Both the position numbers and the translations under genes were made by a program. Under the pieces are notes generated by a model. It worked only from the letters and a program-made list of their open reading frames with translations. It ran no database searches and was not told the origin of the DNA. Positions 26,405 to 35,958 of a DNA stretch of 64,000 nt are shown in pieces (the stretch's first letter is position 1; each line of letters opens with the position of its first letter). The DNA comes from Ilex aquifolium (Eukaryota; Streptophyta; Magnoliopsida; Aquifoliales; Aquifoliaceae): assembly GCA_951799425.1 (NCBI GenBank), contig OX637403.1, positions 23,836,811 through 23,900,810 of the forward strand, in the 5' to 3' direction.

Positions 26405-26577
26405 CATACAGTACCAAATTTTGAAATTAAATTAAAAGCTCAAATGACATGGCAGTATATTATTTGGAGTCTATTGGGGCCCAAATGACATGGCACCAAA
26501 TAAAGAAGCTCAAGTCAGCTGTCGTGTCATTTGAGCTCTTAATTTGATCCCAAAGTTTGGTCAGTATAGCATTACTG
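26405..26577. mobile_element. MITE just after the stop of dioxygenase copy 1
   Basis: Inverted arms read ATTAAAAGCTCAAATGACA (left) and ATTAAGAGCTCAAATGACA (reverse complement of right), with outer matches CCAAATTTTG and CCAAACTTTG. The 3' flank of copy 2 reads from GGATATATTTGCCA straight into the gene end at about 31930-31950 without this block, which serves as the empty site. It lies about 20 bp downstream of the copy 1 stop codon, so it is probably transcribed in that gene's 3'UTR. Confidence 0.65.
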
Positions 26578-26595
26578 ATTTGCGTTGCAGATCTT

Positions 26596-29500
26596 CTAAT
26601 CTTCTTCAAGCTGTGAACTTACTGACATGAAAGCTCCATGAAAACCATATGGCACTCTACCAGGCAGAGTAATTTTGGCAACTGGCTCGCTCGAAATATT
26701 TTTGGTGTCGACTATATAAACCTGCAAGAAGAGAGTTAAACATATCTGTAAAACCCTGCAATAATATAGGACTCTACTTAAACACTGGTTAATGGTTATG
26801 AAATAACTTGCCTGAGATATGTTCGTGTTTTCATTATGCACAAATGTAATTATCCAACCATCGTCTTCTTCAAGACCTCCAACTTTAGGAACAAAAGTGG
26901 CTCCTGAGCAGAAGGTGTTCTCTGGAAAGCTATGGTACTCAACCTTTATCAGCTTGTTCTTCAAGAAATAAATATAAAAATCTTTATCAGCTCTTCGTGT
27001 TGTTTGTTTTCCTATTTCAGAAAATCAAAGATAGCAAAGGGTGTTCTATGGAAAGCTAAATGAATGACAGGAGGGACAAAAGAAGATGCTGGAGCCTACT
27101 AATTCCCAAGACAATCCATTCTCTGGTTCTTCAAAGTATAGCTTGGCTAGACCTCCATATTTAGCCCTTCCTGCAATTTAACAAATTTGACAAAACCATT
27201 ATTCTCAGAGATTAAGCTCTCATATACATAATGGTAACATTTTTACCTGAAGAGGAACTTGCAATTGAATCAACAACTTGGGTGTACCCAAATCTGTTTT
27301 TGCTACCGATGAAGTTTTCATTGATCATAGGAAATTCCATAGAAAATTCTGTTCCTGTGAGATTCCTTTCCTTCACCTCTCCTGTTTTCATGTTTAATCT
27401 CCACTCGTGGGCACGAGAAAAAAAAATTCCATCTTGAGTCATACTGTCACCATTATCTTCAACAGAGTTCATATGCATATAACCTCTGGAAAACCACTCA
27501 TATTTGTTCAAGCCTTGATCAGGTCCCGGTATAACTGATCCACGAGCTTTACACGCCCACATTACTACCTGCTCATTCTCATCCAAGCATAGTTTTAATT
27601 CAAATTTATCTTTTCATTTAACCAAAGACATGGGCTTAAGGAAACGGATGCAATATTTACTTATTACCTCATCACCATCCTCGAAACAATTGAAAAGGTG
27701 AAATACACTACTTGGTTCCACTTCAAACCACTGGATGGAATCTGCATCACCATAGCGAGGCATAACTCCAATCCTGGCATATCCTTTCTTGTCATACTTC
27801 ATCAGCCTACATATAACGAAAATTGCCATCAAAAAACCAAAGTGTATTCCTCCACTTTTTTAGGCCTTTGCTAAAGAACTTGTTTGTCTGCTGAAGCCAT
27901 TTATAAGTGAATGTGAGGAATACACACTTACGGGCCTCCATCAATGAGTCGATTTATGTCTATAACCACTGGAAAATCAATGATCACATTGTACCTGCAG
28001 ACCAAATCTGCATTAAGTCCACACTGAAATTGTAATCAACTTTGGAAACTTCAAATCGCGAAAAAATTTGTTGATTAGCACTTAAATACCTCGGTGTAAC
28101 CCCAATATCACGGCACAGGCTACACCTTCTAAATTTGAGATCAACTCTATGAATTAATTTGTTTCCATCAGCTGAAAAAGGACAATGAACTTTAAGATAG
28201 TAACAAATTAACAACATTTAAAAAGTGGTTCTAGAGGCTAATTTTGAGCTAAACTACTGAAGTATATACCGGAGATCACTCCCAACTCAAAGTAAGGTTT
28301 TTGCGCATCAAACCCCATCATAACGAGCTCTCCAGTTCCTGGAGCTTTCTGTATCATTGAAAATGTCACTTGAGCATAAAGTAATCTGTTTGACATCAAA
28401 ACAAAATTCCATTATTCTTGTATGGTTTTGGTACCTTTGGGTGACTAGTGAATGGTCGATTCCATGCTCCATTAACATCCCAATTGCCCAAAGTTTCTAG
28501 CGTGAAAATGTCAATCTCTTGAGGCACGTGGTTCTCAGCAATTGAGTAAAACTTCCCTGAATGCTCGAAAACATTCGTATTGCTAATGTGTTTGTTTACA
28601 TCGCCAAATCTCAACTGCAAACAATCAGTTATGTCGAGTAATGAAATTACTACTGTTATGGTGTACTTAATCTTTCACAAAGCTTTTAGACAATAGATTT
28701 TGGCCAAATAATGTGTTCAAATTACTTGTTTCTAGCATTTAAGGTTGTCCATGCCAGGATATTGATGGCTCAATATATAATGCATATAATTCATAGTTGA
28801 ATTGGACAGTTGATACAATGCTTTAGTTTAACAAGGATGAGTTCCCCGTATATTAGTACTTATATTCCTAGTAGTTTGAGCTGTTTGTTTATCAAATCTA
28901 CAAAAATGGGCCTCCTTAGTTTTCAGAAAATGAGTTACTCCAAGTTGAGGCGCCGTAATTCAATCAGGTGAAGGCTATTGAATTGTTGTGATAACCTTCT
29001 TACCAAATTTAGCAGATAAGCTGACAAAATTGCTGGGGAATCTCCTTCAAGTGCAGGAAGAAAAGATGGTTTCTTTCTTTCTTTTTCTAATTTCAAAGTA
29101 TCTGTTTGAACATGCCTGTTGTTGTAGTAGATAGTCCAGCTACCATCACTATCTTTATTGAAATTTAAAGAATGGAGCATTCCTTCTCCTTCTATCCATG
29201 TGTGACTTGATCTACCAAACATAGAAACTGTCGATTTTAGTCCTCCAAAAAGAGGGTTTGGGCCTGCAAATGCCATAACATACATTGTTCACATTGTTTT
29301 ATAACTTTGCACGTTGGTGATGTTTGTTTTTTGTAAAAAAAACAATTGGAATTAAACAATGGGAAGACAGAGATCAACCTCATTGGTTAATCTTTGTATC
29401 ACTTTGTTAACAAGGGATTTACAATTTGGAGTTATATGCAGAGCTCCTACAATGAGTAAATGGCATAAAACTGAGAATTCCTCCATGATTTGAACTTAGC

Positions 29501-31004
29501 GTTGGATTAGGATTATTAAAGTCCACCCCCTTTTACATAAGTATAATCGATCAAAACCAGTTTTATAACTTTGCATGTTGGTGATGTTTGTTTTTTGTAA
29601 AAAAAACAATTGGAATTAAACAATGGGAAGACAGAGATCAACCTCATTGGTTAATCTTTGTATCACTTTGTTAACAAGGGATTTACAATTTGGAGTTATA
29701 TGCAGAGCTCCTACAATGAGTAAATGGCATAAAACCGAGAATTCCTCCATGATTTGAACTTAGCGTTGGATTAGGATTATTAAAGTCCACCCCCTTTTAC
29801 ATAAGTATAATCGATCAAAACCAGTTTAATATGGTCCTCCATCTAATACCAAGGGGCAGAAAGTTTTAGCAGATCGATTTGGATTTATATGCAACTAATA
29901 TGGACAGTGCCAAGGTTCATTCGTGGTCATCCAAATTTTCACTTATCCTTGTTATTGAACTTATTTGTGTTCTAAGTACCATTTTTTTTCGATGTTTTCT
30001 GGTTATCGACCAAACAAAGAAAAACCTTGCAGTTGTTGTCTTGGTTATTCAGTAAATTCTCACAAATCTGGATAGAAATGAGCCATATAAACTAAGGAAA
30101 GGCATAAGATATAATAATAATCAAGTGGCTAAAGACAGTACTGACAATTACATTGAATATAATGTTGGGTGATAAAATTAAAGCAAGTTGCATACCATTT
30201 CTTATGTAGATACCCTCTGGAAAATCATCTGGAATACTTCCTTCAACACTGGAAACAAGAACTGCTTCTTCTATCTCTTCAACTGGAGCAAAGTTACTCT
30301 GATAGTATACATGTTTTGTGGATACAATTAATATTAATTGATCAAAACTGTTACATGTCAGCATCTTTGCAAGCATGCATGCAGGTGCAATGAAGGGGAT
30401 TAGTGCCCCCAGCAGTACCTGAGATGGGAGCAATGGCTGGTCAACAAATTCGAACACACGATCGACAAAGGCATCTAATAATCTCACTGGACTGTTTTTG
30501 ATGGTTTTGGCAACGTGGTCGATCTGCACGGGGACTTGCTGAAACCCTCTCAGAAATGGCTGCTAATGAAAACCAGACTCAATGAGTTATGCTTGATATA
30601 ACTTGTGAAATTTTTCACTTTGACATGTTTTGACAACTAGTATTCTGATAGTGTTAAATTCAGCTTTTGACAAGGTGCTAGAATATATTCAAGCAATAAC
30701 AATTCACCACTGGACTTAGTTTTAAGATTCTAGAATATAAACACTGGAATATATTAAACATCAGAGATAAATTTTTCTAAGCCCATATGAGAATATATTA
30801 GCCACTAAAGATTTACTTGCTAACACTACAAAAATAACCAAAGTTTCAACTTTCATGTCATATGGAGAGAGAGAGAGAGAGAGAGAGAGATTAGTCTGCC
30901 TTGAAAGGGGAAGAGAGTGAGTTCTTGAAGTGATCAAATATGTGTGAGGTGAAAGGCCTCTGAACAGAGCAATTCACTTGAAATCCATAACTGCAAACAG
31001 CCAT
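26596..31004 (-). CDS. carotenoid cleavage dioxygenase, ZAS-like, copy 1 (iron ligand lost)
   Basis: Thirteen exons read 31004-30900, 30562-30419, 30298-30196, 29263-29004, 28614-28435, 28348-28270, 28171-28090, 27994-27932, 27806-27668, 27568-27247, 27170-27100, 26958-26812 and 26721-26596. They give 606 aa with no stop. The product is a seven-bladed-propeller non-haem-iron dioxygenase of the CCD family. The N-terminus is Ser-rich and could be a plastid transit peptide. Iron-binding positions are His262 (FTSHPK), position 311, His375 (FHLFNCFEDGDE) and His593 (YGFHGAF). Position 311 is Arg (LCRDIGVT, codon CGT) where the twin and the family have His. Catalysis is therefore doubtful. Intron 1 starts with GC (AAG|GCAGAC) and intron 12 with GC (CAG|GCAAGT). 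The whole sequence resembles plant CCD1-like/zaxinone-synthase-like proteins. The substrate is unproven. Confidence 0.9.
29297..29824. repeat. 264-bp near-identical tandem duplication in intron 3 of copy 1
   Basis: Units 29297-29560 and 29561-29824 both start TTTTATAACTTTGCA and end GATCAAAACCAG. I see only about two base differences. The matching intron of copy 2 (about 34700-34940) has one, more diverged, unit, so this duplication came after the gene duplication. Confidence 0.9.
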
Positions 31005-31970: not shown

Positions 31971-34900
31971 TTATGAACGCGTTGACATGAAAGCTCCATG
32001 AAAACCATATGGAACTCTACTTGGCAGAGTAATTTTTGCAACTGGCTCACTCGAAAATTTTTTGGTGTCGACTACATAAACCTGCAAGAAATGAGTAAAC
32101 AGATCTGTAAAACCTGCAATAACATACGATTAGATTTAAAAATGCTAGTTCCTCATCATGAAATAACTTGCCTGCGATATGTTAAGATTTTCGTCATGTA
32201 CAAATGTGATGATCCAACCATCATCTTCTTCAAGACCTCCAACTTTAGGGACAAAAGTGGCTCCTGAGCAAAATGTGTTCTCTGGAAAGCTATGGTACTC
32301 GGTCTTTATCGTCTCTTCCTTCAAAAAAAAATTTCAGCTCTTCACATTGTTTCTCTCATTATTTCCTAAAATCAAAGTTAAGTACAAAGATGTATCTATA
32401 TGAGTGACAGGAGGGACACAAAGAAGGTGCAAGAGCCTACTAGTTCCAAAGAAACCCCATGCTCTGGTTCTTCAAAGTATAGCTTGGCTAGACCTCCAAA
32501 TTTGCCCCTGCCTACAATTGTGACAGGTTTGATGAAACATTGTCTCAAATATTGATCTATGACAAACATAATGATAATTTTTTTTTCTCTTTTCGGAAGA
32601 TGGTTGATCTGTTGTTACCTGCAATAGAGCTTGCAATTGAATCAACAACTTGGGTGTACCCAAATTTGTTTTTACAACCCATAAAGTCTTCATTGATCAT
32701 AGGAAAATCCATAGAAAATTCTGTTCCTGTGAGATTCCTTTCCTTCACCTTTCCAGTTTGCATGTTTAATCTCCACTCGTGAGCACGAGAAAAAAATATT
32801 CCATCTTGAGTCATACCATCACTAGTATCTTCAACTAAATTTACATGCTTAAAACCTCTAGAGAACCACTCATATTTGTTCAAGCCTAGATCAGGTCCTG
32901 GTATAACTGATCCTTGAGCTCTACACGCCCACACTATAACCTGTTCATCATCACAAAAGATAGACTTAGTAAAAGGAATGCAACATTTAGACTGAATTTA
33001 TATATAAATTACGATCATTGTTCATTACCTCATCACCGTCCTCAAAACAATTGAAAATGTGAAATACACTACTTGGTTCCACTTCAAACCACTGGATGGA
33101 ATCTGCATCACCATAGCGAGGCATCACTCCAATCCTGGCGTATCCTTTCTCGTCATACCTAATCAACCTACATACATGTGAAGTTTCTGCAAGAAATCAA
33201 AAAATATCCCTGTTTCTTTTTAAGGCATTTGCAAAAGAACTTGCTAAACTGTTGATGCCATCAATAAGGGAATGTCAAGAACATATATACTCACGGGCCT
33301 CCACCAACGAGTCGATTGATGTCTATAGTTAGAGGAAAGTCAATGATCACATTGTACCTGCAGACCAAAGCTGCATTAACTCCAAATTGATGTTATAGTC
33401 AACTTTAATCTCCAGTTTTGCAATGGAAGCCTTCAAAGTGGAACAAAAATCATAGTTTGGTACTTTGGTACCTCTGTGTAACCCCCATGTCATGGCACAG
33501 GCTACACCGATTTGATTTGAGATCTACTCTATGGATCAATTTCGTTCCATCAGCTGAAAAAGGGGAACGAATTTTACGATAATAACATAACAACATATTA
33601 AAAAGTGGCCTACACGCTAATCTTGAACTAAACTACTGAGGAATATACCTGAGATCACTCCCAGTTCAATGTAAGGTTTTTGTGCATCAACCCCCATCAT
33701 AATCAGCTCTCTTGTACCAGGAGCTTTCTGTGATAGAAAATGTTACTGAAGCATCAAATAAGCTATTTGATATTAAGACAGATGTATCGTTGTTTGGTTT
33801 TAAGTACCTTTGGGTGACTAGTGAATGGTCGGTTCCAAGATCCATCAACATCCCAGTTACCTAAAGTTTCTAGTGTGGAAATGTTGATCTCTTGAGGGAT
33901 ATGATTCTCAGAAATTGAGTAAAATTTCCCCGAATGCTCGAAAACATTGGTATTGCTGAGGAATTTGTTTACTTTGCCAAGTCTCAACTGCAAACTCCAA
34001 AATTCAAACAGTAAGTTATGTCAAGCTTGGAAATCACTATTGTTATGATCTCATTAACACAACAGAAGCTTTTAGACTATAGATTTTTGATCAAATAGTA
34101 CCTTTCCAAATTTCTTGTTTCTGGCATTTCAAATTGTCTTAGTCTGGCTTTCGGTAAGTCATATAAGTCATAGTTGAATCAGACAGTTGATATAATTCCT
34201 TAGTTTAATAAGGATGATTTCACCATTTTTTGGTACTGATGTACCAGTTTGAACAGCTTGTTCAAATAAAAAAAGATACAAAATGCGCATAGCCTCTTCA
34301 GCAAATGAGATAGTCCAAGTTCCAATGGGTGGTGTTCTTACCAAATTTAGCAGATAAGCTGACAAAATGGCCGGCGAGTCTCCTTCAATTGCAGGAAGAA
34401 AAGTTGGTTTGTTTCTTTCTTGTTCTAATTTGAAAGTCTCTGTCTGAACCTGCCTGCTGTTATAGTAGATAGTCCAGCTGCCACCACTATCTTTATTGAA
34501 ATATAAAGCATGAAGCATTCCTTCTCCTTCTATCCATGTGTGACTTGATCTTCCAAACATAGAAACTGTCAATTTTAATCCTCCAAAAAGAGGGTTTGGG
34601 CCTGCAAATGCAATAACTTAAAACAAATTCACAGCATATTGACATATGTAGTATGTACCCAACCTAATCACATATGATAGTTTGTGCTGTTGACATTGAC
34701 ATATAATTTAGCACGTTGGTGATGTTTGTTCTTGTACGAAAACTAGGAAATGGACAACTGTCAAGACAGAGTTGTCGATCTTGGATCACCTTGTGAACAA
34801 TGCATTTACAATTTGGATTGATATGCCAAGCTCCTACAATGATTAAATGGTATAAGACCAAAAGATTTCCTCCACGACTTGAACTTATCAAAGGACTGTT

Positions 34901-35958
34901 ATAATAATCTGGTCTTCCATATAAAACCAAGGGGTGGAATGCGTCAGTTTGGATTTGTATACATCACTGTCTACAGTGTCAAGGTTCATTACAATCATCA
35001 AATTTTATCCCCATTGATCTGTAAATTGTCTCACATTGGCTTCAAACCAACAGTAAAAAAAAAAGAATCATATCAAATATGAAGTTCTATACCATTTCTT
35101 ATGTAAACACCCTCCGGAAAATCATCTGGAATCCTTCCTTCCACAGTATTGGTAACAAGAACAGCTTCTTCCATCTCTTCAATCGGGGCAAAGTTACTCT
35201 GCCAGTGTACATACATTGGTATAACTTAAAATGTAATCAATCAGAACTGTTTCAGGTCAGCAGGTGACATGCATAGGACACTTCCTGCCAACTTAACACG
35301 AAATCGATACTGAATTAATGGGTATGGGGTTAGGCTTAAGGGCTTCGAGTGATAAACAAGCGAATATGTTAAGACACGTTAAGTAACTAAACACGATATG
35401 AATCTGCTAAAGCTGATTTATACAGGGAAAGAAGCTAACACAAACCTGACTATAGGGGTTCAGTATGATCCCCGAACGACCTGACCCATTGCCAGTAGCA
35501 GCATGCATGCATGCAGGTGCAATAAAGGGGACTAGTGCCCCCAGAGGTACCTGAGATGGGAGCAATGGCTGGTCAACAAATTCGAACACCAGATCGACGA
35601 AGGCATCTAATAATCTGACTGAAGTGTTTTTGATGGTTTTGGCAACGTCGATCTTCAGGGGAACTTGCTGCAACTCTCTCAAAAATTGCTGCTTATCAAA
35701 ACAAGACTGCATGATCAGTTATGCTTGGTACAACTTGTAAAATTCATACATTTATGAAAAACTCAAGATTTTACTTGCTTTCACCCACCACAGAAGAGAA
35801 ACCAAGTACTCTAAGGAGCTTCTTTCATATGGTAGAGAGAGAGAGTAATCTACCTTGAAAGGAGAAGAGAGTAAGGTCTTGAAATGATCAAATCTTTGTG
35901 AAGTGGAAGGCCTCTGAACAGAGCCATTCACTTGAAATGCATAACTGCAGGCTGCCAT
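31971..35958 (-). CDS. carotenoid cleavage dioxygenase, ZAS-like, copy 2 (complete active site)
   Basis: Thirteen exons read 35958-35854, 35691-35551, 35198-35093, 34601-34342, 33987-33808, 33727-33649, 33553-33472, 33357-33295, 33167-33029, 32940-32619, 32511-32441, 32318-32172 and 32081-31971. They give 601 aa, with exon lengths and phases nearly the same as copy 1. All four iron-binding histidines are present: His262, His311 (LCHDMGVT), His375 (FHIFNCFEDGDE) and His593 (YGFHGAF). CCD enzymes use iron and O2 to cut double bonds of carotenoids or apocarotenoids. The EFSMDFPMINE- and NKYEWFSRG-type text fits the ZAS/CCD1-like plant clade from memory, which acts in plastids on apocarotenoids. 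Intron 12 has a conserved GC donor (CAG|GCAAGT). The C-terminus is five residues shorter than copy 1. A GA microsatellite runs right up to the ATG. Confidence 0.92.

Follow-up and report, generated by a model that had tools for sequence, protein, structure and literature searches.

Copy 1 of a tandem pair of carotenoid cleavage dioxygenase (CCD) genes in Ilex aquifolium carries Arg at residue 311, the position at which the family has an iron-binding His. We consider it rather probable that copy 1 is a ZAS/CCD-like dioxygenase that was constrained until recently, is now catalytically dead and is probably starting to decay. Copy 1 (26596–31004; 13 exons, 606 aa) and copy 2 (31971–35958; 13 exons, 601 aa, all four ligand His) are arranged head-to-tail on the minus strand of the window, the 64,000-nucleotide stretch of DNA analyzed here, and their proteins are 83% identical; all gene features given below lie on this strand. 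A third paralogue, copy 3, resides on another contig (C2:9498355-9505674, comprising L095 and L108; 13 exons, 609 aa, four His). It is apparently intact and separated from the tandem pair by ~1.1 synonymous substitutions per site, which makes it of use as an outgroup and as a functional control. Exon phases are identical in the three copies. The acceptor of exon 2 is a NAGNAG, for which copy 3 points to the downstream AG; this choice makes copies 1 and 2 one codon shorter and otherwise has no effect. No further copy of exon 7 was found in the genome by one 1101-base DNA search, which weaker copies could escape: its seven rows were copy 1, copy 2, copy 3 (two rows) and three exon-9 fragments. 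A search of the viral contig collection gave no match.

Copy 1 matched the Pfam RPE65 profile (PF03055) with E=8e-114 over profile positions 1–468 of 469, and copy 2 also matched across the whole profile. The presence of this domain over its whole length indicates that copy 1 is a CCD by descent. Among the second-shell acidic residues, E231 and E463 are present in copy 1, and the third is replaced by Gly535 in copies 1, 2 and 3; in the 86 bacterial sequences compared, this position is occupied by E (71), D (14) or Q (1), and never by Gly. As all three copies share Gly535, the metal site had already departed from the canonical form when the duplication took place. This third acidic position has been called semi-conserved (PMC10255781), so that Gly535 is not decisive. 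Together with the many-exon structure, Gly535 led us to file the pair as ZAS/CCD-like, a placement made by these features; the sequence collections searched yielded no plant ZAS reference. The 13-exon structure is unlike those of NCED and CCD4, albeit CCD1 genes are many-exon too. The activity that defines ZAS is the conversion of apo-10′-zeaxanthinal to zaxinone. ZAS is described as a CCD subfamily of land plants with the dicot clades ZAS3-5 (PMC6379432, PMC9806602), and the tobacco CCDL genes are reported to have 8–11 exons (PMC6888377).

The former ligand is encoded in exon 7 of copy 1 (28090–28171; 82 nt, acceptor TTTCAG, donor GAG/GTATTT, the slash marking the exon end), the extent of which in the gene model coincides exactly with that given in the earlier note. 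Residues 309–316 read LCRDIGVT in copy 1 and LCHDMGVT in copy 2, as had been noted, and the other ligands, H262, H375 and H593, proved to be retained in copy 1, which consequently has three of the four Fe-binding His against four of four in copies 2 and 3. Codon 311 of copy 1 (28110–28112) is CGT (Arg). Since both copy 2, in its exon 7 (33472–33553), and copy 3 have CAT (His) there, CGT is derived by an A-to-G change, and the claim of a single CAT-to-CGT transition was thereby confirmed.

The note had also proposed an alignment to proteins of known structure, which we ran: R311 fell on the family His in the five HMMER alignments listed, out of 30 PDB sequences matched (three CCD1 entries, VP14 3npe and 5v2d, a bacterial dioxygenase being among them). 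The agreement of several alignments rules out a wrong assignment of the ligand position. His occupies position 311 in VP14, CCD1 and all 86 bacterial sequences, which were drawn from the 298 relatives of a single Nostoc protein (80 sequences) and from 85 plasmid records (6 sequences); this set leans to cyanobacteria and somewhat towards retention of His, as one of the six Nostoc seed patterns contains the ligand His. In the same genome, His was found in 12 of the 12 other CCD loci read at this position, namely copy 2, copy 3 and seven NCED/CCD4-like loci by alignment, and two CCD1-like loci and one further locus by motif. This count leaves out the hits at C5:4.58-4.60 Mb, L098 (C5:8.67 Mb) and partial fragments, and the labels NCED-like, CCD4-like and CCD1-like are our reading of motifs and exon structure.

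The metal-site residues of copy 1 run E231-H262-R311-H375-E463-G535-H593 and match the order E-H-H-H-E-E-H of RPE65, by which R311 corresponds to RPE65 H241. From known structures, Glu231 is the putative partner carboxylate of the His at position 311. In CCDs, Fe(II) is reported to be held by four His, three of which are hydrogen-bonded to second-sphere carboxylates (PMC12051055). The RPE65 variants H180R, H241R, H313R and H527R were each reported to be without activity at 30 or 37 °C (PMC4081934), H241R being the same substitution at the homologous ligand, albeit an engineered one in an animal isomerase. Because H241R at the matching position left RPE65 without activity, copy 1 is very probably inactive, which supports the earlier expectation of a weak or inactive protein. 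Without this ligand and with a positive charge next to the metal, the geometry around Fe(II) would be unfit for the replacement of water by O2 and for double-bond cleavage, while the orphaned Glu231 may pair with Arg311 and the fold may survive. Judged from its sequence, copy 1 thus appears to lack an essential catalytic residue, as a pseudoenzyme does. If the 28 replacements of copy 1 were random over 599 codons, ~0.19 hits on the four ligand codons would be expected, and a hit on a ligand is therefore not very improbable in itself.

The second derived change at a critical site in copy 1, besides that in codon 311, is located at the donor of intron 1. The donor dinucleotide of copy 1 (30898–30899) is GC (AAG/GCAGAC), and the corresponding donors of copies 2 and 3 are GT (AAG/GTAGAT and AAG/GTACAT, respectively). 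In terms of plain duplex energy, U1 pairs with the copy 1 donor, which has a poor sequence context, at −3.0 kcal/mol; no other of the 24 donors in the two tandem genes pairs so weakly, and the homologous donor of copy 2 reaches −6.5 kcal/mol. The change from GT to GC would probably lower correct splicing of intron 1. GC-AG introns are reported to account for 1.3% of introns across 61 species (PMC3033335). A GC donor can work, as intron 12 is modelled as GC-AG in both copies (26812–26958 in copy 1 and 32172–32318 in copy 2) with a strong AG/GCAAGT donor; intron 12 of copy 3 is GT-AG. The GT donor of intron 11 in copy 1 is also weak, with 4 of 9 consensus matches, and is apparently tolerated. 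Retention of intron 1 leads to a TAA two codons after the end of exon 1 (30900–31004), and thus the open frame of copy 1 is conditional on splicing at the GC donor. The earlier description of copy 1 as fully open holds for the gene model, which has 606 codons in 13 exons with no stop and in which all coding length differences from copy 2 are multiples of three, but has to be qualified by this dependence on a weak donor.

Between copies 1 and 2, we estimated dS of 0.30, dN of 0.086 and omega of 0.29 (bootstrap 0.21–0.40), and their usable introns diverge by 0.31, like silent sites. With copy 3 as the outgroup, 28 derived residues were assigned to copy 1 and 30 to copy 2, with 42 of the 100 residue differences in this three-way comparison being ambiguous and left out. 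The contrast in dN/dS suggested by the earlier note was run as polarised nonsynonymous and synonymous counts and gave no difference (37/32 in copy 1 and 44/37 in copy 2; Fisher p=1.0). Six relative-rate tests, each with a single outgroup, gave no significant result, and in a tree with distant outgroups the branches of copies 1 and 2 were 0.070 and 0.104, respectively. On the derived-residue counts, the polarised counts and the relative-rate tests, we rejected the idea that copy 1 evolves faster.

Departures were also counted at conserved columns, in sets of 110, 71 and 31 defined by 14 outgroup sequences of our choosing. At the 110 well-conserved columns, private departures numbered one in copy 1 (R311), three in copy 2 and seven in copy 3, and all departures, most of which are shared, numbered 34, 38 and 39, respectively. 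With the count restricted to the 31 strictly conserved columns, copies 1 and 2 have one private departure each and copy 3 has two. When copies 1 and 2 alone were compared, one lone departure was found in copy 1 and five in copy 2 at the 110 columns. In these alignments copy 1 appears unexceptional in the number of its departures, and the nature of the residue is what stands out.

For a wholly unconstrained copy 1 branch, ~9 stops and ~20 frameshifts would be expected, and none of either was observed in the gene model; nor was relaxed constraint found in copy 1 by the comparisons described above. The upper 95% bound on the unconstrained fraction of the branch was 0.22 when only the nonsynonymous and synonymous counts were used, and fell to 0.14 when stops and to 0.07 when frameshifts were taken into account. 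For these estimates, an omega of 0.25 and a flat prior were assumed, and the rate of indels was taken from 885 sites in the 7 introns, out of 12, that are shorter than 400 bp and more than 72% identical. As copy 1 has not evolved faster than copy 2, any release from constraint must be recent, occupying up to 7–22% of the branch depending on the evidence used. Copy 1 would thus have been under purifying selection for nearly all its life before catalysis was lost by the CAT-to-CGT change, and its present state would represent an early stage of decay that precedes the accumulation of stops or frameshifts.

The tempo of evolution as read from the coding sequences suggests either that the loss is recent or that selection still maintains the protein for some other reason, and the data fit both. 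The absence of relaxed constraint fits a very recent event, but would be expected just as well of a retained pseudoenzyme or an erroneous base. That copy 1 is catalytically dead but kept for binding an apocarotenoid or for association with another CCD appears to us unlikely, though worth weighing: R311 is the sole private departure at the 110 conserved columns, expressed CCD-like genes of tobacco (PMC6888377) and Prunus mume (PMC10531161) are said to lack a ligand His, and such pseudoenzymes exist elsewhere, as exemplified by TSB-like, an inactive paralogue of tryptophan synthase beta that activates TSA, and carbonic anhydrase VIII. The weak GC donor, however, speaks against careful maintenance of copy 1. 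It is because of this donor that we favor recent loss over a retained function. The earlier note had offered both options; very recent loss is supported as one of them, whereas apocarotenoid binding or partnering with copy 2 gained no positive support. An extended version, in which copy 1 is a pseudo-dioxygenase retained with the rest of the protein fully constrained, binding apocarotenoids or acting as a CCD partner, and in which copy 2 may have diverged complementarily through G270R (see below) so that the tandem genes act together, is a speculation to which we give little credence. If it is true, copy 1 would join the His-lacking genes of tobacco and Prunus, and the subfamily would have given rise to signalling pseudoenzymes of apocarotenoid metabolism more than once.

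Codon 311 may instead be a segregating null allele or an assembly base error at an otherwise normal enzyme gene, as a single base is involved and the rest of the copy 1 protein looks fully constrained. We regard this as improbable: copy 1 also differs from copies 2 and 3 at a splice dinucleotide, which lowers the likelihood of an isolated chance error, and the contig that contains the window is 33 Mb long, in an assembly of 800 Mb and 103 contigs. Alternatively, copy 1 may still be an iron enzyme in which the three remaining His hold Fe(II), with weak or changed activity. Non-haem dioxygenases of the 3-His type hold Fe(II) with three His, and copy 1 keeps Glu231 and Glu463 along with three His ligands in a site that was already non-canonical at Gly535 in the three copies. 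Nevertheless, we find altered chemistry highly improbable, as a positively charged residue is disfavoured beside Fe(II) and His-to-Arg substitution at each of the four ligands was reported to abolish the activity of RPE65 (PMC4081934). Altogether, we prefer the reading of copy 1 as a recently inactivated dioxygenase.

CCD-like genes lacking a His are already in print, and copy 1 adds a well-defined case. Tobacco NtCCDLa and NtCCDLb (530 and 523 aa) are, like copy 1, said to lack one conserved iron-ligating His, but the missing residue may be another ligand or reflect a missed exon, unlike the defined R311; the three NtCCDL proteins are also described as having Gly for one second-shell Glu, the exact Glu being unstated, in line with Gly535 here (PMC6888377). 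Expression of NtCCDLa/b is documented, mainly in roots and seeds, whereas copy 1 is known from its sequence alone (PMC6888377). The Prunus mume members PmCCD1-like-b and -c are described as missing conserved His residues and transcripts of them were found, but they have only 6 of 15 motifs and -c has 247 aa, so that truncation is likely at least for -c, in contrast to the one substitution in copy 1 (PMC10531161). The authors of both papers call the effect of the His loss on activity unknown (PMC6888377, PMC10531161). Cerasus humilis has a tandem CCD-like pair as found here, ChCCD-like-a and -b, although the ChCCOs, unlike copy 1, keep the four His according to the results of that paper ("most" according to its discussion; PMC10255781). 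As the reported ChCCD-like pair and our copies 2 and 3 keep His, the loss of His is no rule for such pairs. Copy 1 is related to the ZAS subfamily by CCD descent and differs from it, as far as described, in the missing ligand His (PMC6379432, PMC9806602). Carbonic anhydrase VIII is reported to have lost a Zn-binding His, kept its fold and become catalytically silent with a conserved regulatory role, and copy 1 is likened to it by the lost metal ligand and by its predicted silent catalysis on a kept fold, though not by a regulatory role (PMC13253706). Among the literature matches listed, a set outside which most subscription journals and supplements fall, no His-to-Arg tandem copy of ZAS was found described.

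The question of dead or regulatory His-lacking paralogues among CCD-like proteins has been raised in print (PMC6888377, PMC10531161), and zaxinone, the apocarotenoid made by ZAS, has been linked to growth, strigolactone level and mycorrhiza in rice (PMC6379432). The present locus offers a clean test case for the former, comprising one substitution, a tandem sister and the unlinked, four-ligand copy 3 as the control. It suggests that a gene can keep an open frame and evolve slowly while its product is dead as an enzyme, a state that annotation based on domains would miss.

The sister gene is not free of change itself. Copy 2 carries G270R, in the stretch after the ligand His262, with AGA (Arg) in place of a Gly codon at 33710–33712; Gly270 is found in all 86 bacterial relatives, VP14, CCD1, four NCED-like loci of the same genome, and copies 1 and 3. 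The view of copy 2 as an unaltered enzyme is weakened by G270R, and its use as an intact reference in the earlier note did not stand, as the residue is Gly in every other sequence compared. Asp463 of copy 2, a candidate second-shell lesion, was dropped since Asp is also found in copy 3, three CCD4-like loci of the same genome and the sequence of a CCD1 structure. Separately, one bacterial CCD match, on a plasmid of Nostoc sp. UHCC 0302 (L001, record 64202-66484), falls within a CDS of ~760 codons, which points to additional sequence at the N-terminus.

Repeats and gene fragments are associated with the pair. Intron 3 of copy 1 contains a 264-bp tandem duplication (29296–29831), the units of which are 98% alike, and one stretch of copy 2 matches both units. 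At 17 bp beyond the stop of copy 1 lies a near-palindromic, MITE-like repeat of ~166 bp (26413–26578), which occurs in tens of copies across the genome (of 867 candidates, 40 were scored). A 3′ fragment of copy 1 comprising exons 11–13 and flank was found ~7 Mb away on the same contig (L096 4052-5209, C13:16990551-16991708), being 97% identical over the exon-bearing pieces. As this fragment is without the ~166-bp repeat, the latter was either inserted after that duplication or lost from the fragment. Three further loci, L103 (C2:18574099), L104 (C4:2782036) and L105 (C10:14819610), are dispersed repeat copies that are 94–97% alike and nearest to copy 2. They carry ZAS fragments of exons 9–11 with stops in the readings, and look like a transposon having captured a gene piece.
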